Source of the DNA: Thermoplasmata archaeon
GTDB taxonomy: Archaea; Thermoplasmatota; Thermoplasmata; Lutacidiplasmatales; UBA184
NCBI GenBank assembly: GCA_028864975.1
Contig: JAGWLG010000007.1
Coordinates: forward strand, 1-64,000
Direction of reading: 5' to 3'
DNA length: 64,000 nt
Part shown: positions 24 through 24,676 of the stretch, one piece after another
Layout: every line of letters begins with the position of its first letter
Numbering within the stretch: position 1 is the stretch's first letter
The notes under the pieces: generated by a model
The model's input: only the letters and a program-made list of their open reading frames with translations
What the model was told of the DNA's origin: nothing
Databases searched by the model: none
Translations under genes and position numbers: made by a program

Positions 24-1778
24 AGGTGAACGAGTTGTAGCTATGAGATGAGTTGGCACCTGGAGTTCCGCACCATCGATGGGAACCGGTACCTCTACCT
101 CTGCGAGAAGCGGAGGACCGAGAAGGGGCCCCGGAACGTCCAGCAGATCTATGTGGGCACCGCCGAAACCCTCCTCCGCAAGCTCTCGAGCCCCGGCGAG
201 CCCCTGCGATCCTTCGAGTTCGGCAAGATGGCCGCCCTCCTTCACGCAGCCAAGGAGACCGGCCTCCTCGAGGCGTTCCAGCGCCACGTCCCTCGCCGCC
301 CCCTCGACGAGTACGCCGTCGAGCAGCTCCTCTTCCTCCAGCTCGCCGGTCGGGTGGAACGACCCCTGAGCCGGGATGAGATGGCCGACTGGCTCCCCGA
401 CTCGGCCCTCCCGTTCCTTCTCCCTGACCTCGGTCACCCCTCGGCCCGGACCCTCCGCCGTCACCTCAAGCGCCTCTACGGGAACGGGGAGAAGGAGGAG
501 CGAGGGAGGGGCTTGCTCACCCGCGCCGTCGTCCACCGGATCGAGGAGGACGTCTTCCGGACCCTGGTGAAGAAGGGGATCGATCCGCGCCTCCTCCTCT
601 TCGACACCACGAACTTCTTCGTCGACCACCAAGCCGGACTCTTCCCCGCCCGAGGGCACTCGAAGGAGAAACGGTACGACAAGCGGCTCGTCGGTCTCGG
701 GCTGGTCACGGTGGGCACCATGCCGGTCCTCACCGAGGTCTACCCGGGCAACGAGGGGGACGCCAAGGTGTTCGCCCGGGTGTTCGACGCCCTGGTGAAG
801 CGTCTGGTCGACCTGGAGGTGGCCACGGAGAAGATGATCGTGGTCTTCGACCGGGGGATCAACTCCGAACCCAACTTCGAGATGGTGCGAGGGGCGATGC
901 ACGTCATCGCTGCCCTGAACCGCCAGCAGGCGGCGAAGCTCTTCCGGCTCGAGCTCTCCGAGTTCCAGGAGGTGGCCAAGGACGCGGAGGGGAACCCCGT
1001 CCTGGGGTTCTCTACGCGATGGTTCGGGTTCGAGCAGGACTGGCGGGTGCTCGTAACCTACCGAAGAGCGAGCGCCGAACACCAGCAGAAGACCTGGGAG
1101 GATGTGCGGGCTCGGGTCCTTGCGCGAGCCCAGGAGTGGCGGGACCACCCCGCGGCAAAGGAGAAGACGCTCTGGCGGAAGATCGCCCAAGTCATCCCGC
1201 GGGGCTTCCAGTCGGAGTTTGAGGTGAAGGTGGAGGAGGTCCCGGTGACCCGACGTGGGAGGCCCGCCACGGCTTACCGACCCCACATCCGAGTCCTACC
1301 GAGGGCGGAGGCCCGTCTGCGGGCCTCCTTCGGCAAGACGGCCATCATCTCCGACCTGAACGTCGAGGAGCTCTCGCACCGAGCGCTGGTGGAGGGGTTC
1401 GTGGCCCGGGACCAGATCGAGCAGGACTTCCGGTGGCTGAAGGACCGGTATGTGGTCTCGGCCAAGCCGTTCCACGTCTGGCACGACGCGACGGTGCCCG
1501 GCCACCTGTTCCTGTGCGCGATGGGGCTCCTGCTGCTCCGCTACCTTCAGTGGGAGATGCGGGCCCAGGACCTGTCGATGAAGGAGCTGGTGGAGGCGCT
1601 CGAAGCGATCAAGGTGGTCTTGGTGAGAACCACGGAGGGGAAGCCGCGGCTGGTCCTCGAGAAGATGGGACGGGAGGAGGCCCAGGTGTTCACCGGGCTC
1701 AAGCTGGACCAGATGATTCCCGCGTAACTCCCCGGAGGGACCCCGAAATCCGCGGTCCTACAGCTACACGATTTACCT
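24..1778 (+). mobile_element. Insertion sequence, IS1634-like (IS4 superfamily), with imperfect terminal inverted repeats
   Basis: Transposase ORF flanked by imperfect inverted repeats: left aggtgaacgagttgtagctatgag (24-47); right, reverse complement, aggtaaatcgtgtagctgtagg (1757-1778). Exact ends uncertain. Confidence 0.7.
48..1727 (+). CDS. IS1634-family transposase
   Basis: 559 aa ORF; DDE-type features (LLLFDTTNFFVDH, FDRGINSEPNFEM, DQIEQDFRWLKDRY) typical of IS1634 transposases. Confidence 0.85.
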   Translation: MSWHLEFRTIDGNRYLYLCEKRRTEKGPRNVQQIYVGTAETLLRKLSSPGEPLRSFEFGKMAALLHAAKETGLLEAFQRHVPRRPLDEYAVEQLLFLQLAGRVERPLSRDEMADWLPDSALPFLLPDLGHPSARTLRRHLKRLYGNGEKEERGRGLLTRAVVHRIEEDVFRTLVKKGIDPRLLLFDTTNFFVDHQAGLFPARGHSKEKRYDKRLVGLGLVTVGTMPVLTEVYPGNEGDAKVFARVFDALVKRLVDLEVATEKMIVVFDRGINSEPNFEMVRGAMHVIAALNRQQAAKLFRLELSEFQEVAKDAEGNPVLGFSTRWFGFEQDWRVLVTYRRASAEHQQKTWEDVRARVLARAQEWRDHPAAKEKTLWRKIAQVIPRGFQSEFEVKVEEVPVTRRGRPATAYRPHIRVLPRAEARLRASFGKTAIISDLNVEELSHRALVEGFVARDQIEQDFRWLKDRYVVSAKPFHVWHDATVPGHLFLCAMGLLLLRYLQWEMRAQDLSMKELVEALEAIKVVLVRTTEGKPRLVLEKMGREEAQVFTGLKLDQMIPA

Positions 1779-12263: not shown

Positions 12264-13247
12264 TTGTCCCGCCGTCACTCCTCGACGGCAGAAGCTCCCT
12301 CAACGCTCTTGAGTCCGTGGGTTGTCGACCTCGCGAGCGGGGTAGGAGGAAGAGACTTGCCAAGGTTGCGGGGGGCCGCACGGTCGAAACTTGCCCAGCG
12401 CGCTGAGGTGGTGCTCGACCGGAAGGGGATTCGACTCCTAAACGCGGATGTCCTCAGCGTGGGGCTGGAGCCCTCCAGCGTGGACCTGATCGTCACCTCT
12501 CCCCCCTATGGCGTGGATATCAAGTACGCCACGTTCGCCGACGACCTCCCCTACGAGGCTTACCTCGACTTCACCCGGAAGTGGCTCTCGAGCTGCCTGG
12601 GGTTCCTGAAGTCGGATGGGAGACTCTGTCTCAACCTCCCTCTCGACAAGAACAAAGGGGGTCAGCAGAGCGTCTACTCTGACGTGCTCCAGGTCGCGAA
12701 GACGGCGGGCTGGAAGTACTTCAGCACGATCATCTGGAACGAGCAGAACATCTCCCGTCGGACGGCCTGGGGGTCCTGGCTGAGCGCCTCCGCTCCCTAC
12801 GTGATCGCCCCGGTGGAGGTGGTGGTCCTTCTCTACAAGGGGACCTGGGAGAAGGCCTCGAAGGGAGAGTCCGACGTCGCCCGCGACGACTTCATCGCGT
12901 GGACGAACGGGATGTGGACGTTCGGAGGGGAGACGCGGGATCTGGGTCATCCCGCCCCGTTTCCCATCGAACTCCCCCGTCGCTGCATCACGCTCTTCAG
13001 CTACGTTGGGGACACGGTCCTCGACCCCTTCGCGGGCTCCGGTTCCACCCTCCTCGCCTGCCTCGAGACACGTAGGAGGGGCATCGGCGTCGAGATCTCC
13101 AAGACCTACTGTGACCTAATCAAGAAACGCCTGACCCAGGCGCACCTCTTCGAGCGACGCCTCGACGAGGCTCCGGGAGACCCCGCCAGCGACGTTCAGG
13201 CGGGGCCGAGCTCGTCAGCCCACCGAACGAGGTCCGGGGGGAGCTGA
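12264..13247 (+). CDS. DNA methyltransferase (N4-cytosine/N6-adenine type)
   Basis: Motif IV TSPPYG and motif I DPFAGSGSTLLAC...RRGIGVEIS. Confidence 0.85.
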   Translation: MSRRHSSTAEAPSTLLSPWVVDLASGVGGRDLPRLRGAARSKLAQRAEVVLDRKGIRLLNADVLSVGLEPSSVDLIVTSPPYGVDIKYATFADDLPYEAYLDFTRKWLSSCLGFLKSDGRLCLNLPLDKNKGGQQSVYSDVLQVAKTAGWKYFSTIIWNEQNISRRTAWGSWLSASAPYVIAPVEVVVLLYKGTWEKASKGESDVARDDFIAWTNGMWTFGGETRDLGHPAPFPIELPRRCITLFSYVGDTVLDPFAGSGSTLLACLETRRRGIGVEISKTYCDLIKKRLTQAHLFERRLDEAPGDPASDVQAGPSSSAHRTRSGGS

Positions 13248-13939
13248 CGCAGGGGACGAACGATGCCCCCCAGGGTTGTGACCCCATCCCGCGACGGGAT
13301 GTAGTTCTTCCTGAACTCGGCGGCGTCCTCGACGTACAGACCGGCTAGGAAGCCCTCCGCAAGCTTTCTCGCGATGAGCGCCGTTTCCCAGGTCGGCCCC
13401 CCGAGCTCGGACTTCCAGCGACCCTTCGTTGAAGTCCCCGCATCCGGAGTTGCGACCACCACCCGGAGGTTCTTGATAGTCCGGTAGAGAAGACTGTAGA
13501 ACAGCGTCTCCGTCATTCGGGCGTGGAAGCTTGTCTTGCAGCTGATGATGGCCACCGGATAATCGTCCCTTGCGGCGATGAGGTCGATGTCGCCCCAGAC
13601 GCCCAAGTCCGCCTTCGCAAAGTTCCGGCTCACGACGGGAATTTTCAACAGCCGGTAAAGTTCGGGATGCCCTTCTTCGAGGCGCCTTGCCTTCTTCCCA
13701 TCGAGGATCTCGACACCCTCTCTTCCCAGGCGAGAGCGATCGAAGGACTCGAGACACGCCTTGACGTGAAGCTCCCAAGCGCGCCCGGATCTCGAGGCTC
13801 GCGATTGCCGTGCCCGTACCTCGGTAGCGATATCGAACGCGTCGTCCTTCAACGGTCCTAGACAAGGGACAAGCTCTACGAAAGCCCTCCCGTCGTCGCA
13901 CGGCTCGGCCGGACCGGGGAACCCACCTGCCTCGCTCAC
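13196..13939 (-). CDS. Type II restriction endonuclease, PD-(D/E)XK (possibly BsaWI-like)
   Basis: 247 aa; GDIDLIAARDDYPVAIISCKTSFHARMTETLFYSLLYRTI, convergent and 3'-overlapping with the methyltransferase. Confidence 0.7.
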   Translation of the reverse strand: MSEAGGFPGPAEPCDDGRAFVELVPCLGPLKDDAFDIATEVRARQSRASRSGRAWELHVKACLESFDRSRLGREGVEILDGKKARRLEEGHPELYRLLKIPVVSRNFAKADLGVWGDIDLIAARDDYPVAIISCKTSFHARMTETLFYSLLYRTIKNLRVVVATPDAGTSTKGRWKSELGGPTWETALIARKLAEGFLAGLYVEDAAEFRKNYIPSRDGVTTLGGIVRPLRQLPPDLVRWADELGPA

Positions 13940-14002: not shown

Positions 14003-14575
14003 TCAGCTGAGCCCGGCAGAGCGCGCCCCCGCGCACACCGCGCCGAACGCGCACGTCCGGCACTTCCCCGGAGCGGGGTCCATCGCCCCTCGGTAGGGCT
14101 GCCGCCACTCCTCAAGCACACCGAGCACCTCGGCCCGCGCCTCATCGTCCCACCGGACGGGGATCTCCGTCCCGTCGCCGAAGGAGAGGACGCCGAAGGG
14201 CGGTGGGGCGCCGGTCGCTTCCTCCAGGAGCAGGCAGTAGGCGAGCAACTGGATCCGGTGGGAGGGGTAGGGCACCCCGCTTCGCGGCGCCCGGGTCGAT
14301 TTGATCTCGACGGGAACCAGCCGGCCGTCCCGCGAGCGGCGGAGCTCGTCGGGACGGCCTGAGAGGCGATAGCGGGGGGAGGAGAGTGTGCGCATGCCGC
14401 CGCCGAGGGACGGTTGGTCGACCGCGAGGGCGCGGGCGGGGGTGAGGACGGGAGGGTTGAAGAGGCGGTAGAGCGCCCATGCGGCGACGCCGACGAGCCC
14501 CAGGAAGAGCGCCGCGTAGACAACGTCGACCATGTCGACATTGTCGACAAAGTGGGCAATGTCCACTAGAGCCAC
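14003..14575 (-). CDS. Membrane-anchored Cas4/Dna2-like nuclease, C-terminal half
   Basis: N-terminal TM (VYAALFLGLVGVAAWALYRLF), then RLSGRPDELRRSRDGRLVPVEIKS, HRIQLLAYCLLLEE and C-terminal CRTCAFGAVC (C-x2-C-x5-C). Confidence 0.75.
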   Translation of the reverse strand: MALVDIAHFVDNVDMVDVVYAALFLGLVGVAAWALYRLFNPPVLTPARALAVDQPSLGGGMRTLSSPRYRLSGRPDELRRSRDGRLVPVEIKSTRAPRSGVPYPSHRIQLLAYCLLLEEATGAPPPFGVLSFGDGTEIPVRWDDEARAEVLGVLEEWRQPYRGAMDPAPGKCRTCAFGAVCAGARSAGLS

Positions 14576-14856
14576 CCCAGGACGTAGGCGAGGCCCGCCC
14601 CGAGCGCGAGCGCGACCAGTAGCGCCGCCGCGTACGGCGCTCGCGACGCCTTGACCGGCATCGCGTCGACCGTCTCGATGCGCGCGTGGACCTCCTCCCC
14701 CCTGTAGAACGCCTCGACGGGGGGTCGATATTCCGCCCCCTCGGGGACGTCCTCGGGGTGGCGCTTCCAGTACCAGGCTCGCCTACAGTAGGCGAAGTCG
14801 CCGAGCTCCGAGGCGGTGGCCCAGGGGCCACCGCCGGGCCGGCCGTCCGTCTGCAC
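14566..14856 (-). CDS. Membrane-anchored Cas4-like nuclease, N-terminal half
   Basis: ASELGDFAYCRRAWYWKRHP (Cas4 N-terminal Cys motif), RGEEVHARIE, C-terminal TM (APYAAALLVALALGAGLAYVLGWL); overlaps the next ORF by 10 nt. Confidence 0.7.
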   Translation of the reverse strand: MQTDGRPGGGPWATASELGDFAYCRRAWYWKRHPEDVPEGAEYRPPVEAFYRGEEVHARIETVDAMPVKASRAPYAAALLVALALGAGLAYVLGWL

Positions 14857-15510: not shown

Positions 15511-16179
15511 CTAGCGACTCGCTCGAGATCTCCTGCCGTACACCGGGCGCCACACCCCTGGTCGATGCTCGTATTTCCAGAAGTCCCGCCCGTTTACCTT
15601 GTACGGGCACACCCACTGTGCCGCCTCGGTCATGCTACTGAAGTACGTACCGTTGAGCAGCACTCGCCCGTCCTGGAGCAGTAGGGCACCGATCCTCCGT
15701 TTCCGCGTTTGGCCCACGAGTATGCCCCCGCTCCGAAGAATCCTCTTTCGGAGTCTGGCTGGGAGCTCCCTCCCCCTCGCAGAGACGTCGCGGCGCAGCA
15801 GCGCCCGGGCATCCGCGCGGTGGGATGCCTGGTCGAGCAAGTGGTTGAGATCCAGCGCTCGCACGAGTTTACCTCGCTGGCGTATTCCCGGCACGTCAGG
15901 ACTGACGTGGTGTAGGAGAGCCTCAAGCCCTCGCACATTGATGAGCGGGGGAGAGGAGTACACGCTGAATCTGTTCCAACTGCTGCGATGGCGGTCCTTC
16001 CCATGCTGATTGAGGCGCGTCCAGAGATTCGTGGCCATCCCCACGTAATAGAGAGACTTGCCGGAGTAGAGCGCGTAGATCCCGGGTCTTCGGCTCAGGA
16101 ACTTCTGAAGAGTTCGACTGTCCAGGAGCGCGCGGTCTAGCTTCTCAGCGTAGGTGTCGACGATTGCCTTCGTCGTCAT
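15511..16179 (-). CDS. GIY-YIG nuclease with RAMA/DUF4357-like C-terminal domain
   Basis: RRPGIYALYSGKSLYYVGMATNLWTRLNQH; C-terminal GALLLQDGRVLLNGTYFSSMTEAAQWVCPYKVNGRDFWKY. Confidence 0.75.
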   Translation of the reverse strand: MTTKAIVDTYAEKLDRALLDSRTLQKFLSRRPGIYALYSGKSLYYVGMATNLWTRLNQHGKDRHRSSWNRFSVYSSPPLINVRGLEALLHHVSPDVPGIRQRGKLVRALDLNHLLDQASHRADARALLRRDVSARGRELPARLRKRILRSGGILVGQTRKRRIGALLLQDGRVLLNGTYFSSMTEAAQWVCPYKVNGRDFWKYEHRPGVWRPVYGRRSRASR

Positions 16180-16297
16180 TGTTTGAGAGGATGACTGTTC
16201 GGCGCTCTTAGACCATTCGAGAGCAGGGTCGGGTGGGATTGAGAAACCAACCTACTCAAGTGGTTGCGCGACGCCCCGCGGGACTGGGCCTAAATCG

Positions 16298-16501
16298 TTA
16301 CGACCAGTCTGCTGACAGCAACTCCGCTTGGTGCAGAACGATGCGGGTCGCCTTCTCCTTCTTGTCGGCCGGGTAACCGTGCGCCTTGAGGACGCGTTTC
16401 AACATGATGCGGAGCTTCGCTCGGACGCTCTCGCGGCTCGTCGGGTCGATGGAGACGTTCTTGCGGACGATCTCGACGAGCTCAAACCGGGACGACTCCA
16501 A
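16298..16501 (-). pseudogene. Orphan C-terminus of a type I HsdR (DUF3387-like)
   Basis: [64 protein letters not shown] start, overlaps the 3' end of the SIR2-like ORF. Confidence 0.7.
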
Positions 16502-17552
16502 AGGACTTCGCAGCTCTGACCGCCGCGCTCGACGAACCCAATCGGTCGCTGACGGTGGTCACCTTTGGTTTCTCGTCTCGATCAAGCCAGCCTAGGATGT
16601 CCGAAGGGTGTGGATGCAAAACGACCATTCGCTTCGGACCGGAGTGCAAAGCCTCCTTGATGACCGTCCTGATGAACTCGTCCTGGAACGAATAACCGAT
16701 GAAGAGCCAACAGTCCCGCTGACTCAGGTCCAACTTGAACTGTGCCAGCAGGTCCATCCAAGGACGTAGATAGAGGTCCTTCTGTTGGATCGGGTAGAGC
16801 ATCACTTGGGCGTCTATTGGAACATCCCCAACGTGCCCTCCCCCCTTCGGGTGCTCAACCACCCTTCCGTCCCGGAGGAGGTACCAGTCGAAGGATCCGT
16901 GAAGCTTCACGAGCCGTGGATCGTTTGCGTTGAGTTGTGAAACATGGAAGACCGGGGTTCGTGTCTCGTCGAGCATGAAGGGAGTGTTCAGCAGGCCCCT
17001 CCCATGGAAGAGGCGCTCTACCACGAAGTCATAGTTCGTCGTGAAGATTGGAAACTGAACTCGTGTGAACGGTCCCTTTCGGGAGTCCGAAGGAGGGGCA
17101 AAGGCACCCTGCACAGTTTCGAGCTCTTGGAACAGATTGAGAAAGGGACGGAACAGTTCTGGCCCGCCAGTGTCGAGCGTTTCGGGAGAGCAGAGGGCTC
17201 GAACCCTTTCCTTCAAAGTGGTCAGCAGGTTCTCCGCGAGTTGGCTTTCGCGCTTACCACTCGAGAGCGAGGACCTTGGGCTCTCCTGCAATACTTCGGA
17301 CACGAGATACCAACTTGGGTACCCGAGATCTTCCGCGGTAAGGTCCTTCGCAATTGCGTCAACGATACTGAAGATTGACTCAATGTCCGGGGTCACCCTG
17401 TGGCGCTTGAAACCACCCATGATCTCGTCGAATAGATCTCGCTCTCGACCCTCCTCGATCTCGTCGAAAATCGCGGGAACCAGCTCCCTCATCGTAGGGA
17501 CGCCAAGCGCTCGCGAGGCCCCCGCTCCAAGGAAAACCAGGAATCGACTCAC
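16482..17552 (-). CDS. SIR2-like domain protein (putative NADase-type defence effector)
   Basis: [57 protein letters not shown]. Confidence 0.8.
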
Positions 17553-17755: not shown

Positions 17756-18226
17756 CTACTCGCGATAGAGCTCGAACTCAATCTCCCGGTCGTTCTGCTT
17801 TCCCCTCGCATCGAATACGAAATGCCAGTTCCCGGTAGTTGGGATATCGATATCGACGTGGGCCGCTGCGACTTCCGTTTCTCGCTCGGCCGCGGTGAAC
17901 GACTCCTCCCGATACAAGGCTGCGTAGTTCCGAGAGTCCACAATCCACAGCGTAAATCTCTGGCCGGTGGTCTCGGTTGCGACCCCAGTAACTCGATCAC
18001 CCTCTGACAGCCTTCGGGAGAAGTCGCGTAGCGCCCCCGCATCGAGAACGAAGGTCTTCTTGAACAACCGTTCCGCTGCCGCGTTTAAGGCACCACCCTT
18101 GCTATCTTCGGCGGTCCGGTGCCTGCGCTGCAGATAGGGGAGCAGGGCGAAGAAGACCAGGAGAAACGTCCCAATGGCGGTCGCGACGACCGCCACAAAC
18201 TCGACCCAGAATGTCCAGTCAGGCAC
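17756..18226 (-). CDS. Membrane-anchored protein in the type I R-M operon
   Basis: N-terminal TM (WVEFVAVVATAIGTFLLVFFALLPYL), C-terminal beta-rich VDIDIPTTGNWHFVFDARGKQNDREIEFELY; start overlaps hsdM stop. Confidence 0.65.
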   Translation of the reverse strand: MPDWTFWVEFVAVVATAIGTFLLVFFALLPYLQRRHRTAEDSKGGALNAAAERLFKKTFVLDAGALRDFSRRLSEGDRVTGVATETTGQRFTLWIVDSRNYAALYREESFTAAERETEVAAAHVDIDIPTTGNWHFVFDARGKQNDREIEFELYRE

Positions 18227-19805
18227 CGGCCCCGCGCTCCTCGGACCTCACTTCACCTTGGGATTCTGCCCCCTTTCCCGTGCCCTGCGCGGGGACGAGG
18301 TTGACGCGCGCCGCGAGATCGTTCGCGATCGCCGCGAACTGCTCCGCGGCATCCTCGAGGTCCTCCGCGATCTCGGCCGCGAGGACGTGGGGCTCGGGGA
18401 GGTTCGCGGAGTCCTCCAGCGACTCGTCCTTGACCCAGGTCAGGTCCAGGCTCGCCTTGTCCCGAGCAAGCAGCTCCTTGAGGTCGTACGACCGCCAGCG
18501 ACCCTGCGGGTTCGACTTGGGATCGTAAGTGGCCCTGCGCGCATGACGGTTCACGGGGTTGTAGAGCTGGACGAACTCGTCCAGGTCTTCGCGTTTGAGC
18601 GGGTTCGTCCTCAGCGTGAAGTGCTGGTTCGTGCGCAGGTCGTAGACCCAGAGCTTCGTGGTCCAAGGCTTGGGGCTTCCCGGCTTCTTCTCGAAGAAGA
18701 GGACGTTCGCCTTGACGCCCTTGGCGTAGAAGATCCCTGTGGGGAGGCGGAGCAGCGTGTGGACGTCGCACGTCTCGAGGAGCTTGCGGCGAATGGTCTC
18801 CCCCGCGCCCCCCTCGAAGAGGACGTTGTCAGGGACCACGATGGCGGCGCGCCCGCCCATCTCCAGGAGGCTCTTCACGTGCTGAAGGAAGTTGAGCTGC
18901 TTGTTGCTCGTCTCGGCCCAGAAGTCCTCGCGGATTATGAGCAGGGCCTGCCTGTCAGCGCCCGCTTCCTCGTTGGTAATGGTGAACGCTGCTTTCCTCC
19001 CAAACGGCGGGTTCGTCAGGACGACATTGAAGTGATCGCTTGGAGCGGCCCGCAGGCTGTCATCAGTCCTCACGGGGGGTTCCGCCTCGTCAGCCTGAGG
19101 GCCGATCCCGTGGAGCAGGAAGTTCATGGCGCACAACCGAGTGACCCCATCGACCAACTCAACTCCCTGGAGCGTGTTGAGCTTCAGGCGCTTCTTCTGG
19201 GCCCGGTCGAGGTTCGGATTGTTGCGAACGACGTAGTCGTGCGCCGCGAGAAGGAAGCCCCCCGTTCCACACGCCGGGTCGCAGATGGTTTCTCGAGGTT
19301 GTGGGTTGACCACTTCGACAATAGCTCGGATCAAGGGTCGCGGGGTGAAGTACTGTCCAGCTCCTCCTCTCACGTCCTCGGCATTCCGCTCCAGTAGCTC
19401 TTCGTACGCCGCGCCTTTGACGTCCACGTCCAAGCTCATCCAGGATTCGTGGTCAATCAGATCCTTAACAAGTCGTTCCAAGAGTGCGGGGTCCTGAATC
19501 TTGTTCTGGGCCTTTCGGAAGATGAGGCCTAGCATCCCCTTCTCCTTCCCGAGTGACTCGAGGACATGGCGGTAGTGGGTCTCGAGGTCGTCCCCGGAGC
19601 GCCTGAGTAGTGAAGGCCAGGCGAATTGCGCGGGTACGGGAGAAGAGCGATTCCAGGGAGCATGGGTCTGCTCGTCGGCCATCTTGAGGAATAGAAGAAA
19701 CGTCAACTGCTCCAGATAGTCCCCGTACGAGAGACCCACGTCGCGAAGATTGTGGCAGTAGTCCCAGAGTCTTCGGCCTATCTGTTGGGAGTGATTGGTT
19801 GCCAT
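18219..19805 (-). CDS. hsdM: Type I restriction-modification DNA methyltransferase subunit
   Basis: 528 aa; AGQYFTPRPLIRAIVEVVNPQPRETICDPACGTGGFL and VLTNPPFGRK. Confidence 0.92.
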   Translation of the reverse strand: MATNHSQQIGRRLWDYCHNLRDVGLSYGDYLEQLTFLLFLKMADEQTHAPWNRSSPVPAQFAWPSLLRRSGDDLETHYRHVLESLGKEKGMLGLIFRKAQNKIQDPALLERLVKDLIDHESWMSLDVDVKGAAYEELLERNAEDVRGGAGQYFTPRPLIRAIVEVVNPQPRETICDPACGTGGFLLAAHDYVVRNNPNLDRAQKKRLKLNTLQGVELVDGVTRLCAMNFLLHGIGPQADEAEPPVRTDDSLRAAPSDHFNVVLTNPPFGRKAAFTITNEEAGADRQALLIIREDFWAETSNKQLNFLQHVKSLLEMGGRAAIVVPDNVLFEGGAGETIRRKLLETCDVHTLLRLPTGIFYAKGVKANVLFFEKKPGSPKPWTTKLWVYDLRTNQHFTLRTNPLKREDLDEFVQLYNPVNRHARRATYDPKSNPQGRWRSYDLKELLARDKASLDLTWVKDESLEDSANLPEPHVLAAEIAEDLEDAAEQFAAIANDLAARVNLVPAQGTGKGAESQGEVRSEERGAGA

Positions 19806-19814
19806 TGGTTCACC

Positions 19815-21149
19815 TCATCCCGCGACCGGCTTCTTTCGGTTTCGTCCCGAGGGAGATGAGGCTGCCGGGGCACGGCCATGCCTGACTCGCTCGAGGAGCG
19901 CGCTCGCGGACTCGTCGCGGGGGTCCTGGGCGGCGAGGCGGCCCTCGAACGCGGTCTTGAGAATGGACTGTCGTAGTGCACTGCTGCGAGTCAGCGCCCC
20001 GCAGATTCCCAGGAGGGATTCCCGTGAGTCTTTGAGAAGGAGAGACACTTCTCGAACAAGAGACGCCTGTACCTTCAGATCTGGCAGAGGAACTAGAATC
20101 GTCTCCATCTGAGGGTGAGAGATCTTGAAGATCCCAGCCGTGGTCTTCACCCTTGCTTCGATTTGTCTTCGCACTCCGCGTGACGCCCACATGAGAGCAA
20201 CCCAGCGCGGGTCTACCCGTGATCTATCCAGTCGAACTCGAGTCATCGTGTCGGGATAGACTATCTGCCGAGGGGGGGTTTGGGCTACGGTGCCCCGCCC
20301 GACCAGATGCAGACTCCCGTTTCCGCGAGAAATGAAGAACTCATCAGCTCGGATTGCTAGGTCCCTAGCTGTCTCACTGTCTAACGGCAGATACCGAACA
20401 TCGGTGTAGTCGAAGCCGTTCTCGCCCATCGCTGAGAGGCGTAGCGCAGGAGTACCAGGGGGGGTATCGGAGCCTTTGATTGAGATTCCATTACAGAGGT
20501 GCTCAGTAACCAGCGACCCAAGCTGAGTCGTGGTCGTTCCCCCAATCATCCAGACGCTTTCGAGAACGCTCGCTCGGTAGCGCTCTAGTTTCGATCGCGC
20601 CAACTCCAGCGCCGCCACCCCCGCCTCCAACCTCGCGAAGTTAGCCTCGATGGCCTCCACGATGCGGCGCTGCTCGGGGAGGGGGGGGACAGGGAGGGGG
20701 AACTCCCGAACGTCTTTCTGACGGATCGCGGGATAGAGCGCCCCTTGAACCTTAGCTGACATGGCCTGCACAAAGCCAGGAGTCTGAGTGAAGTAGTAGA
20801 TCCAACGAGGGTCGAGTACGCGTGTTCGGAGTACGTCGAATCCAGTCGATCCCACTGCGCCGTCAAGCGCGAGTGGTACAAGCGCTACAGCATTGAGATT
20901 CGGTCGTGTCATCGAAACAAGCACGTCACCCGCTTTCAGATTCTGCCGAGCCCGGCTAGGGGCCTCCGTATCACTGAGTGTCCTCGGCGATTCGATTCGT
21001 TTGGTCGCATTGTCTACACTGCTGATGTCGACGTAGGCGAACTCCCCTCGCTCGGTGGGACCCTCTTGCGATACCTTCGATTCAACCATCTCCCCGATGG
21101 TCGCAGCGCCCCAGCCTTCCGGAAGATTGGCGACTCCCACGAATCTCAT
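19815..21149 (-). CDS. hsdS: Type I restriction-modification specificity subunit
   Basis: Within ORF 19815-21539; start MRFVGVANLPEGWGAATIGEMVESK at 21149; two target-recognition domains with PLPPLPEQRRIVEAIEANFARLE spacer; ATGA overlap with upstream ORF stop (21146). Confidence 0.9.
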   Translation of the reverse strand: MRFVGVANLPEGWGAATIGEMVESKVSQEGPTERGEFAYVDISSVDNATKRIESPRTLSDTEAPSRARQNLKAGDVLVSMTRPNLNAVALVPLALDGAVGSTGFDVLRTRVLDPRWIYYFTQTPGFVQAMSAKVQGALYPAIRQKDVREFPLPVPPLPEQRRIVEAIEANFARLEAGVAALELARSKLERYRASVLESVWMIGGTTTTQLGSLVTEHLCNGISIKGSDTPPGTPALRLSAMGENGFDYTDVRYLPLDSETARDLAIRADEFFISRGNGSLHLVGRGTVAQTPPRQIVYPDTMTRVRLDRSRVDPRWVALMWASRGVRRQIEARVKTTAGIFKISHPQMETILVPLPDLKVQASLVREVSLLLKDSRESLLGICGALTRSSALRQSILKTAFEGRLAAQDPRDESASALLERVRHGRAPAASSPSGRNRKKPVAG

Positions 21150-24100
21150 TCCGCCAGCACCCCATTCAACTCCTCGATCACCTTCGTCAGCTCCTTCCCG
21201 AACACCACGCTCGCTTTCCCCAAGCCACCCTTCTGATTGAACGGCGGCAGGTCGAAGTCGTCCGCCTCGATCTGGAGGCTCGACGCGACGTGGTCCCGCA
21301 TCATCTCGAGCCAGACTCGTTGCTCCGGTGTGAAAGGCTTCCCTCGTCGCTCCTGCCCCTTCACCCACTCCTCGAACCGTTCCTGAACGTGTTGAGGGAA
21401 CGGCTCTAGCACCTGTTCTTGTTTGAGCGCAAACCGTACCAAGCTCACGATATCCGTCAGGAGCCTCTTCTGCCCTGCCCCCCGCACGCGGTCCTTCTCC
21501 AATGTCTCGTAGGCCCGCCACAAGACTTCCGGCGTCCACTGCCTGGGTGGCGCGCTGATCGTATCGGCGAGAGCCTTCACGTCCTCGAACGTGAGGTGCA
21601 TCCCGCGCGGCTTCGAGTAGAGGACCTGCAGCGCCGTGATCTCGTCCCTGTGTTTCTCGATGAACTCCTCGAAGCTCCTCACGAGCGCACGCGCCTTCTC
21701 CTTGGCCTCCGCCGAGAACCCGGCCTCGAGCAACTGGTCCTGGCTCACGGAGTCGATGGTCTGGTCGGCCCGCTTCTTGACCTCCAGGATCTTCGCCCGC
21801 AGCGCGGGGTTCGCCGCGAGAGGCTTCACCGCCTCCCGCAGCATCTCCTCCTTCACCTTCGCGACCGCGTCCTCGGGAGGGGTCGCTCCTGAGGCTAGCT
21901 GGAGCGCCGCCCTCGCCCTCTCCGCATGCACCTGCGGGTCGAGAGCCCTCACCAGCCCGCCGGCGAGGTCCTGAAGGCTGGCACCTCCGCTCACCTCCTT
22001 GACCGCGACCCTCTGCTCATCGGTGAGTCGTCGGTCGAGCCTCGCTAGCTTTCCCGCGAGCGTGCTCGCCACGCGCTCCCCTTCAGCCCCGAAGGCGACC
22101 TTCTTCAGAAGCGCGGGGAGGCTTTCGAATACCCGCTCCAGCTCCACCCCCGGACGCTGGTCCAGCGAGAACGTGTCACTCAGGTCCGAGTTGCAGACCC
22201 CGACACAATCGACAATGACGAAGTGGTCCTTCGAGACCGCGTCGGGTCCCGAGACCGCGATCAGGTCCGTCGGCGAGATGACCCGGACCGCGCGCCCCTT
22301 CATCTGTTCGAAGTAGGTGCGCGACTTGACCCCTCGCAGGAACATCACGATCTCGAGCGGCTTGATGTCGGTCCCCGTCGCGATCATGTCGACGGTCACC
22401 ACGATGCGTGGCTGGAAGGTGGTCCTGAACGACTGGAGGAGGTCCTCCGGTTTCGCCCCCGTCGTGCGATACGTGATCTTCTGGCAGAACTCGTTGCCTT
22501 TGTCGAAGACCTCCCGGATGGTCCGCACGATGTCGTCGGCGTGCGAATCATCCTTTGCATAGACAAGGGTCTTGGGGACCTCGGCGCGTCCTGGAAAGAT
22601 CTCGGTCGGGAGCTTCTGCTTGAACGTCTCGAAGACCAGGCGAAGCTGGTCCTTCACCACGACCATCCGGTCCAGCTCTTGGGGGGTGTACGTGAGGTCT
22701 TCGTCGAGGTGGTAGGACCGCACTCGACGCGAGATGCGGTCACGCTTCTCCACCCACGCCCCCTTGTCGATGGTTCCACCGTGAACCGTCCGGTCGGTCC
22801 GGATGCGGTAGACGTCGAAGTCGACGTTGACGCCGTCAGCGACAGCCTGGGCGTGGGTGTACTCCTGGACTTCGTCCAGGATGAGCAGCACCTTGCCGCG
22901 GTCCTTGCGCGCGAGCAGGAAGGACCAGAGCAGGGAGAGAAGGGCCGCCCCCAGGTAGGAGGAGGCGCGGACCCCGATCGCCGTTCGCTCCAGGTCAAAG
23001 AAGGTCACCGCACCCGGCTCGAGCGCCCGGGAGAGCGACCACCGGGGGGCGCGGGTGGCGAGAAGACGAGAGATGGCGGACGAGAGCGCGACCTCCTGAA
23101 CGATGCGGAGGGCTCCTTGCCGCTCCTCGGGGCCCTCCCTTCGGATCGACTCCCAGAGCGCGAGGGCCTCCTTCCCCCCTTCGTCCTCCGAGGAGAGCGG
23201 GCCGACCCACCGGTCGGGCTCGGAAAGGAGCTCATGAGCGTCGCGCAGGGTCGAGCCCGGGCAGGCCGAGAGCACGAGGAACGTCCGCGTGAGAAGGTCC
23301 TCGATCCGGGGCCCCCAGTAGAAGGTCTCCCCGTAGCGTTCCGCCCGCACACGCCGAAGTGCGGTCACGAGCTCGCTTACCCTTCGCTCTCGTTCCGCGC
23401 GGGCATTCGCCCCGGTGAGGCCGGTTGGAAGCTCCAGAGCGTTGATCCCTACAGGTGAACGGAGCGGGGCGACCCAGACCGATCGAGATCGCGCTGCCGG
23501 GGAGAGCAGGTGCAGGACCCCTTGAGCGGTCTCCCCCAGGGGATCGACCACGATCAGCGACGTTCGCCCGTCTCCCATGGCGTCGGCGGCCAGACGCTGT
23601 AGGAGCGTGCTCTTGCCCATTCCTGTCTCCCCCGCCACGGTCAGGTGATGTCCCTCGCCCCGCGTCAGCGACCAGCCAACGCGCTCCCCTGCGGGATCCG
23701 TTCCCACGTGGAGGTCCCTTGTTCCGGTGGAGGGGAGGGACCGAAGCCCAGGGGTCCGCCGGGCGTCCCAGGGGGGCAGCCAGAGCATCAGTTCGGCGGG
23801 AGTGACCAGCGCGGGGGCTTGCCCGAAGCCCAACACGCGAAACCAGTCCTTCGGCAGATCGAGGCGGGTCGTCGCCTCCCACTTTCGAAGCCCGCCCTCG
23901 CCGCGGACCCAACGAACTTGGAAACTCCCTCCCCCAGGGACCCCCGAGATGGCGCCCCAGAGTGAACTGACCGCGTGCTGCTCCTCCTTCGTGGGAGTGT
24001 TTCCCCCAGGCCCCGTGATGGCCAGGGCCCCACCGCACTCCCAGTAGGGACCGGGAGCGCGCTCCCCCCGGAGGTCCTCCATCTCTCGTTCCAGTCGATG

Positions 24101-24676
24101 CGCAGGGGGCAACGGTAGCGGCGTGTCGCGGTCGCCACGGGGGAGATGCAAAGCCCGAGGGGTCGCAGCAGGGGCCGAAGGGCCCACCGGGCGCGCCACG
24201 AACCGTATGCGCACCTCTCGCCGAGGCCCCCGGAGCGAAGGAAGGAGCAAGGTCCAGGGAGAGATCGAGCGCTCGCTTCGCGAGGACCGCATCGGGGCCG
24301 AGGTCGCTCGTGCCGTGGCCCCACCTATCGTTCCGATGAGCGAGCCCGGCGGGGGCGGACTCGGGGCCGACGGGCTCAAGGACCACGACCACGGAAGGAT
24401 GCGAGGCCCCCATAGGGCCATGACGGCCGCGCGGTGCTCGAGGCGGGTGAGAAGCGAGAGCGTCCCGGCCCCGGACCTGTCGAGATGCACCTCCAACGCG
24501 AGCGTCGCGCCTCGTGCGTGCAGGGCCCGGAGCGCCTCCTCTCTTTCGAGCGCGTGTGCCCACGCGAGCTCCCGGTCTTGCCGGGCGAGGGCCCCTGGGA
24601 AGAGTCGGAACGTGGCCAGTTCCCGCGAGGGGTCCGAAGGTCGGGGACGGGAGGTGGATAGGATCCTGGGTCGCAT
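21146..24676 (-). CDS. Chimeric ORF: HerA/TraG-like ATPase (N-term) joined to the C-terminal half of type I HsdR
   Basis: 1176 aa; Walker A VAGETGMGKST and Walker B KVLLILDEVQ, then immediately EYTHAQAVADGVNVDFDVYRIRT...VPKTLVYAKDDSHADDIVRTIREVF..., characteristic HsdR sequence. HsdR nuclease and first helicase domain are absent. Confidence 0.8.
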   Translation of the reverse strand: MRPRILSTSRPRPSDPSRELATFRLFPGALARQDRELAWAHALEREEALRALHARGATLALEVHLDRSGAGTLSLLTRLEHRAAVMALWGPRILPWSWSLSPSAPSPPPPGSLIGTIGGATARATSAPMRSSRSERSISPWTLLLPSLRGPRREVRIRFVARPVGPSAPAATPRALHLPRGDRDTPLPLPPAHRLEREMEDLRGERAPGPYWECGGALAITGPGGNTPTKEEQHAVSSLWGAISGVPGGGSFQVRWVRGEGGLRKWEATTRLDLPKDWFRVLGFGQAPALVTPAELMLWLPPWDARRTPGLRSLPSTGTRDLHVGTDPAGERVGWSLTRGEGHHLTVAGETGMGKSTLLQRLAADAMGDGRTSLIVVDPLGETAQGVLHLLSPAARSRSVWVAPLRSPVGINALELPTGLTGANARAERERRVSELVTALRRVRAERYGETFYWGPRIEDLLTRTFLVLSACPGSTLRDAHELLSEPDRWVGPLSSEDEGGKEALALWESIRREGPEERQGALRIVQEVALSSAISRLLATRAPRWSLSRALEPGAVTFFDLERTAIGVRASSYLGAALLSLLWSFLLARKDRGKVLLILDEVQEYTHAQAVADGVNVDFDVYRIRTDRTVHGGTIDKGAWVEKRDRISRRVRSYHLDEDLTYTPQELDRMVVVKDQLRLVFETFKQKLPTEIFPGRAEVPKTLVYAKDDSHADDIVRTIREVFDKGNEFCQKITYRTTGAKPEDLLQSFRTTFQPRIVVTVDMIATGTDIKPLEIVMFLRGVKSRTYFEQMKGRAVRVISPTDLIAVSGPDAVSKDHFVIVDCVGVCNSDLSDTFSLDQRPGVELERVFESLPALLKKVAFGAEGERVASTLAGKLARLDRRLTDEQRVAVKEVSGGASLQDLAGGLVRALDPQVHAERARAALQLASGATPPEDAVAKVKEEMLREAVKPLAANPALRAKILEVKKRADQTIDSVSQDQLLEAGFSAEAKEKARALVRSFEEFIEKHRDEITALQVLYSKPRGMHLTFEDVKALADTISAPPRQWTPEVLWRAYETLEKDRVRGAGQKRLLTDIVSLVRFALKQEQVLEPFPQHVQERFEEWVKGQERRGKPFTPEQRVWLEMMRDHVASSLQIEADDFDLPPFNQKGGLGKASVVFGKELTKVIEELNGVLAE

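Follow-up and report, generated by a model that had tools for sequence, protein, structure and literature searches.

A putative two-subunit, membrane-anchored Cas4-like nuclease encoded by overlapping genes in a family of uncultured Thermoplasmata

Cas4 nucleases are viewed as soluble single-chain Fe-S proteins. The window studied here, a stretch of 64,000 nucleotides from the genome of a Thermoplasmata archaeon (G000), carries the parts of a Cas4-like nuclease in two overlapping open reading frames (ORFs), each with a transmembrane (TM) helix. Is this a broken gene, one gene read in two frames, or a pair of genes in its own right? We consider it likely that each ORF is a gene of its own, coupled to the other in translation, and that the products are the two subunits of a single Cas4-like nuclease anchored in the membrane.

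Two overlapping genes at the window locus

A sequence-only reading of the window had described two ORFs, each combining Cas4-type motifs with a TM helix, and translation recovered both as described. We refer to them as the N-half and the C-half; the features of the locus are as follows.

14566..14856 (-): N-half gene, 96 aa; Fe-S cysteine, active-site His helix and one C-terminal TM helix (translation, family conservation)
14785..14787 (-): Cys24 of the N-half, first Fe-S ligand by homology
14686..14688 (-): His57 of the N-half, RecB-type motif I metal ligand by homology
14572..14628 (-): TM helix of the N-half, about residues 77-95 (hydropathy peak)
14564..14568 (-): TAGTG stop/start overlap of the N-half and C-half genes; 1-nt overlap, putative translational coupling
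14003..14566 (-): C-half gene, 187 aa from GTG 14566; one N-terminal TM helix, PD-(D/E)XK core and three C-terminal Cys
14003-14575 (-): maximal ORF of the C-half, 190 aa if GTG 14575 is taken as an alternative start
14459..14533 (-): TM helix of the C-half (AlphaFold helix 15-39 of P0002; hydropathy)
14300..14359 (-): GRPD (Asp76) and VEIK (Glu90, Lys92), PD-(D/E)XK catalytic residues, invariant or nearly so in alignments A1 and A3
14237..14251 (-): QLLAY (Gln109-Tyr113) of the C-half, RecB motif IV (alignments A1 and A3)
14033..14062 (-): Cys172, Cys175 and Cys181 of the C-half, the other three Fe-S ligands by homology (50/50 family pairs)

In translation, the N-half contains ASELGDFAYCRRAWYW (with Cys24) and RGEEVH (with His57), followed by its C-terminal TM helix; the C-half opens with a TM helix and continues through GRPDEL, VPVEIKS, QLLAY and C-x2-C-x5-C. 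The C-half matches the Pfam families PDDEXK_1 (2e-10) and Cas_Cas4 (2.6e-7) and aligns with profile positions 61-179 of TIGR00372, the NCBI cas4 model. The N-half alone matches PDDEXK_1 at 0.17, below threshold. The C-half probably starts at the GTG at 14566, the best candidate because an ATG occupies the same position in the nearest relative (TGATG in G001) and a GGTG lies 6 nt upstream.

The split is conserved across the family

We searched 60 relatives from the family of uncultured Thermoplasmata to which the window's genome belongs (denoted f1), and a strong homologue was present in 55 of them. Isolates SubAcS15-31 and SubAcS13-24, placed in Ca. Lutacidiplasmatales by the literature (PMC9287336), are among the named records that match the family; the placement of the family as a whole in Ca. 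Lutacidiplasmatales rests on these isolates.

Read on the correct strand, 55 of 57 family loci from these soil archaea were split at one same point (51 called automatically and four by eye, the four being G012, G042 and two diverged paralogues, in G002 and G000:C92). Of the two remaining loci, one is interrupted by a contig end; the other, in a MAG that is 64% complete (G024), has a C-half without an N-half. The C frame was -1 relative to the N frame in all 55 split pairs. With the same split point and the same relative frame in 55 of 57 loci, the two-gene layout is well past chance expectation. Both halves are also under purifying selection (dN/dS of ~0.15-0.4 for each, from eight pairs of relatives).

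The junction is G-rich and the genome assembly is a draft, which leaves room for the idea that a sequencing or assembly error, or decay into a pseudogene, has broken up an intact gene. This is almost certainly not the explanation: the split recurs at 55 loci of the family and, beyond it, in other phyla, the same layout occurs on closed plasmids of cultured bacteria, and dN/dS is far under 1 for both halves. The specific suspicion raised in the sequence-only reading, that one base of the G run is wrong, falls with the conservation of the split across the family and with the unlinked halves of some bacteria. That reading had also called for a search for homologues split at the same point, which are found both in the 55 family loci and in bacteria, and it would have been given up had all homologues been single soluble Cas4-like proteins; the close homologues are instead split, or fused with two, four or more central TM helices.

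A second, diverged pair of the same genus (L072 in G000:C92 and L034 in G002:C54) has lost the C-terminal Fe-S cysteines while keeping the two-gene layout, and in L034 the N-half Cys is gone as well. Given these cysteine-less, degenerate paralogues, some copies may be inactive.

One product or two

An in-frame start for the C-half (ATG, GTG or TTG within 28 nt of the N-half stop) was found in 49 of 51 family loci, against 23 of 153 control windows. Start positions peaked at -4 (ATGA/GTGA-type; 24) and at -19, and six family loci had a GGAGG 6 nt 5' of the C-half start. No XXXYYYZ slippery heptamer was found in the 51 loci.

These counts bear on whether programmed -1 ribosomal frameshifting might fuse both frames into one two-TM Cas4-like protein. 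Such a product would resemble the homologues that are fused via central TM helices, and the C frame is indeed -1 to the N frame in every family split pair; this relation is no argument for frameshifting by itself, since ATGA and TAGTG overlaps both yield -1. A programmed frameshift calls for a slippery site and a fixed frame and needs no second start, and the pair does not conform to this description: the heptamer is absent, in-frame starts are conserved and in some loci preceded by GGAGG, and in bacteria the frames vary and the halves may be parted by a gene or unlinked. We consider frameshifting extremely unlikely. The bacterial layout decides the matter: halves occur there with a gene between them or on different contigs, and the N-half and C-half are two proteins. 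A single gene split by frameshift or by sequencing error was likewise rejected as a candidate on the conserved split, the starts, the lack of a slippery site and the bacterial layout.

The Fe-S and catalytic residues are divided between the halves

All 50 family pairs have the N-half Cys, the GxPD and QxxxY-like motifs and CxxCx5C; the N-half His is present in 49 of 50 and [ED]xK in 48 of 50. Among bacterial pairs, Cys, His and CxxCx5C were present in 20 out of 20. An N-half alignment spanning archaea, Chloroflexota, Acidobacteriota and the Bacillus and Planctomycetota plasmids had the Cys, the His and two Gly as invariant positions. The division is strict, with the conserved Cys and His confined to the N-half, and GxPD, [ED]xK, QxxxY and the three Cys confined to the C-half. 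The PD-(D/E)XK core with GxPD, [ED]xK and QxxxY that marks the Cas4 family is present, as are its one N-terminal and three C-terminal Cys, here spread over two proteins, with the cluster itself a prediction. The pair departs from the family in being neither a single polypeptide nor soluble and free of TM helices.

The hydropathy of the N-half TM was at least 1.78 in all family N-halves. Lys/Arg counts were 3.1 before and 0.5 after the TM in the N-half, and 0.08 before and 4.6 after it in the C-half. Because the Lys/Arg residues beside both TMs lie mostly on the nuclease side, the nuclease parts of both halves are predicted to be cytoplasmic. Comparative genomics, through the residue split and the flanking charges, supports the sequence-only proposal that one Fe-S cluster and one RecB-type site are divided over two membrane proteins facing the same way.

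The sequences show the gene structure, the division of residues, the conservation and the joint occurrence of the halves; topology, complex, cluster, activity and substrate belong to the proposal that follows. In the mechanism that we propose as the most economical one, each subunit would insert in the membrane with its nuclease part in the cytoplasm, and the single TMs of the two halves would pair as does the hairpin of natural fusions. Pairing would join Cys24 with Cys172, Cys175 and Cys181, and His57 with Asp76, Glu90 and Lys92, such that one [Fe-S] PD-(D/E)XK active site would arise only at the membrane. A two-protein site would hold the nuclease off the chromosome until it is assembled. 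With less confidence, we suggest that the enzyme may trim or degrade single-stranded or branched DNA at the inner face of the membrane, apart from CRISPR; candidate substrates would be DNA from conjugation, phage injection or uptake, and debris of replication or repair. Both the DNA substrate and the pathway are guesses.

Fused relatives and predicted structures

In other Thermoplasmatota (Methanomassiliicoccales, Poseidoniales and other groups) the homologue is one protein of ~325-420 aa with four TM helices, which come after the Cys/His helix and before the nuclease core, at the position of the split point. In Chloroflexota, genome G131 carries both parts in one ORF that has two central TMs, and genomes related to it have the split form. 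The near relatives are membrane proteins in their fused form too. With either two or four TMs, an even count, these fusions are consistent with a placement of both nuclease parts on one face. Two further fused proteins of ~555 aa (L048 in G087 and L062 in G077) have long multi-TM inserts, with more than four TM helices, inside the Cas4 domain.

AlphaFold modeled a fused homologue (L141) with a pLDDT of 79.5, the nuclease part being mostly >85, with long helices between. Its best Foldseek matches in the PDB were type I-C Cas4 structures (8d3q, E 2.6e-6, TMt 0.54; 8d3l, TMt 0.65). The window's C-half alone was modeled as a TM helix and core (pLDDT 86.5), and its Foldseek matches were the Cas4 entries 7mi4, 8d3l and 4ic1, as well as Dna2, AdnAB and MGME1.

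Comparison with known nucleases

The pair shares with the Cas4 family (TIGR00372/PF01930; CAS-Cas4 and solo-Cas4) the PD-(D/E)XK core, the motif I His, GxxD, D/E-x-K, QxxxY and the 1+3 Cys; it differs in consisting of two polypeptides, with TM helices at the joint, where Cas4 is one. In the main text of a family survey, all Cas4 family members are given four Cys and solo-Cas4 is placed in many Chloroflexi (Hudaiberdiev et al. 2017, PMC5704561); in that main text the word "split" does not occur and "membrane" occurs once. The best structural matches, type I-C Cas4 (8d3l, 8d3q) and SSO0001 (4ic1), align with the fused homologue on either side of the TM insert; unlike it, they are soluble single chains, and type I-C Cas4 works with Cas1-Cas2. 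The Argonaute-associated ACE1 (9iab, 9iac) is also a structural match and a Cas4 family member outside CRISPR, but it is a single chain, named for its Argonaute association. The nuclease domains of Dna2, AdnAB, MGME1 and EXO5 have a similar RecB-like core, but these are parts of helicase-nucleases or stand-alone exonucleases with no split at this point. No account of a split or membrane Cas4 turned up in our literature search, which covered a minority of subscription papers and preprints, so that a prior mention elsewhere is possible.

If the proposal holds, the pair would represent a naturally occurring split nuclease, its activity bound to membrane assembly and its genes sometimes unlinked, and it opens a testable question, namely what DNA is processed by Cas4-type enzymes at this site. 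Annotation would be corrected as well: the C-half is listed as Cas4, Dna2/Cas4 or PD-(D/E)XK nuclease and the N-half as "hypothetical protein," and what is catalogued is half an enzyme.

Bacterial counterparts and plasmids

The same two-gene pair was found in Chloroflexota and sporadically in Acidobacteriota. An N-half was detected in 43 of 201 Chloroflexota genomes, and 42 of those 43 also had a C-half (the exception, in which the C-half went undetected, is G171). About 12 further Chloroflexota genomes had a C-half with no N-half match in a single-sequence search; in those that were read, a diverged N-half lay upstream. In Acidobacteriota, one strong and two weak N-half matches were found in 119 genomes. 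The relative frame of bacterial pairs was 0, 1 or 2. The halves lay on separate contigs in five genomes (G105, G106, G146, G205 and G261) and had another gene between them in three (G110/L147, G189 and G293); the intervening gene, uncharacterized in G189, we take from sequence recognition to be L,D-transpeptidase-like in L147 (G110) and G293.

Plasmids carry the pair as well: three records of Bacillus subtilis plasmids, NZ_OX419581.1 and CP120602.1 among them, a Paludisphaera plasmid, a Singulisphaera conjugative plasmid, where it lies near a MobF relaxase, and probably the SH-PL62 plasmid. The plasmid pairs are annotated as "hypothetical protein" together with "Dna2/Cas4" or "PD-(D/E)XK nuclease." The B. 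subtilis C-half had no match among phage records. On one of the B. subtilis plasmids (L262; NZ_OX419581.1, 64-kb), the pair stands in a run with helicase, Hfq, thermonuclease and toprim genes. The B. subtilis versions offer tractable laboratory access.

Of the 180 positions of TIGR00372, the bacterial N-half covers 2-44 (a weak match, E 0.026) and the bacterial C-half 58-178, so the anchors would replace a short stretch of the Cas4 domain. The bacterial C-half alone scores above the NCBI Cas4 cut-off. This result, together with the good model of the window's C-half on its own and the fact that the halves may be unlinked, lends some weight to an alternative in which no single enzyme is formed: the C-half would be a membrane nuclease sufficient in itself, and the N-half, with its origin in the same domain, would act as a regulator or inhibitor. 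We regard this as unlikely: the C-half has nothing to match the fourth Fe-S Cys or the motif I His, both invariant in the N-half, natural fusions have both on one chain, and a C-half is present in nearly every Chloroflexota genome with an N-half. Two subunits of one enzyme is the reading that we retain.

Phylogeny of the membrane forms

The membrane forms separated from the soluble Cas4s that we sampled (from Chloroflexota) with 100/100 support, and the fused archaeal clade had a support of 98/99. Fission within the lineage, from the fused gene of order mates, was rejected: a topology forcing the family's split form together with L057 and L063 had a p-AU of 0.0005. Grouping the family's split form with the bacterial split forms gave a p-AU of 0.32, and grouping it with the whole fused clade gave 0.086, so that neither grouping was rejected; the bacterial group had weak support as one clade. 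On these data the ancestral state may have been split, or the split form may have been transferred from bacteria.

As a broader reading, which we put forward tentatively and with some doubt, the pairs may belong to an old class of Cas4-like Fe-S nucleases that consist of two subunits embedded in the membrane and occur in Chloroflexota, on plasmids of Planctomycetota and Bacillota, in some Acidobacteriota and in one Thermoplasmata family. The split would be ancestral and the four-TM fusion of other Thermoplasmatota derived; the enzyme would be completed only by TM pairing and would police DNA crossing the membrane.

Relation to CRISPR and defense

A survey of 61 family genomes found Cas1 in 14, and not in G000. 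No cas gene, cas1 and cas2 included, adjoined the loci inspected. A role in CRISPR adaptation is unlikely, since the pair is present in 55 of 60 relatives and Cas1 in 14 of 61 genomes, with none in G000. One could still picture the pair as a CRISPR adaptation Cas4 tethered to the membrane and processing prespacers where DNA enters, given that the closest solved structures are Cas4 proteins of Cas4-Cas1-Cas2 complexes. The scarcity of Cas1 and the lack of cas genes beside the inspected loci make this specific picture very unlikely, as does the separation of the membrane forms from soluble Cas4s.

PADLOC gave no match for the N-half, and for the C-half only the Cas4, Cas4-Cas1 fusion and DruK nuclease models; no PADLOC defense model more specific than these generic Cas4-like nuclease models was matched.

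Gene neighborhoods

Neighborhoods were described from GC3-guided gene calls at a few loci, automated clustering being dominated by antisense ORFs in this GC-rich DNA. They vary among lineages. At the family locus examined most closely (G014), the pair lies between what we take, from sequence recognition, to be L7Ae/S28e/L24e-like genes on one side and ndk and Sua5/TsaC-like genes on the other, and at several other family loci presumed L24e-like genes precede the pair. In Chloroflexota, a translin-like gene lies directly upstream of the N-half at seven loci (L131, L147, L148, L179, L214, L218 and L226) and farther off in L158; a functional link of translin with the membrane nuclease is possible.

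The region around the pair looks like a defense island in G000, unlike the locus of its relatives. Directly downstream of the pair, an N6/N4 DNA methylase gene (12264-13247, +) converges on and overlaps a gene for a BsaWI-like restriction endonuclease (13196-13939, -; PF18643). Upstream of the pair, positions 15511-17552 encode a GIY-YIG protein (with PADLOC PDC-S14 matches) and a SIR2-like protein. Farther along, a 1176-aa ORF (21146-24676, -) combines a HerA/VirD4-like ATPase N-terminal part with what seems to be a type I restriction HsdR C-terminal part; it lies upstream of HsdS (19815-21539) and HsdM (18219-19805), and the gene is either chimeric or the result of an assembly join. An ORF at 48-1727 (+), at the window's left end, is presumably transposase-like, judging by sequence recognition.
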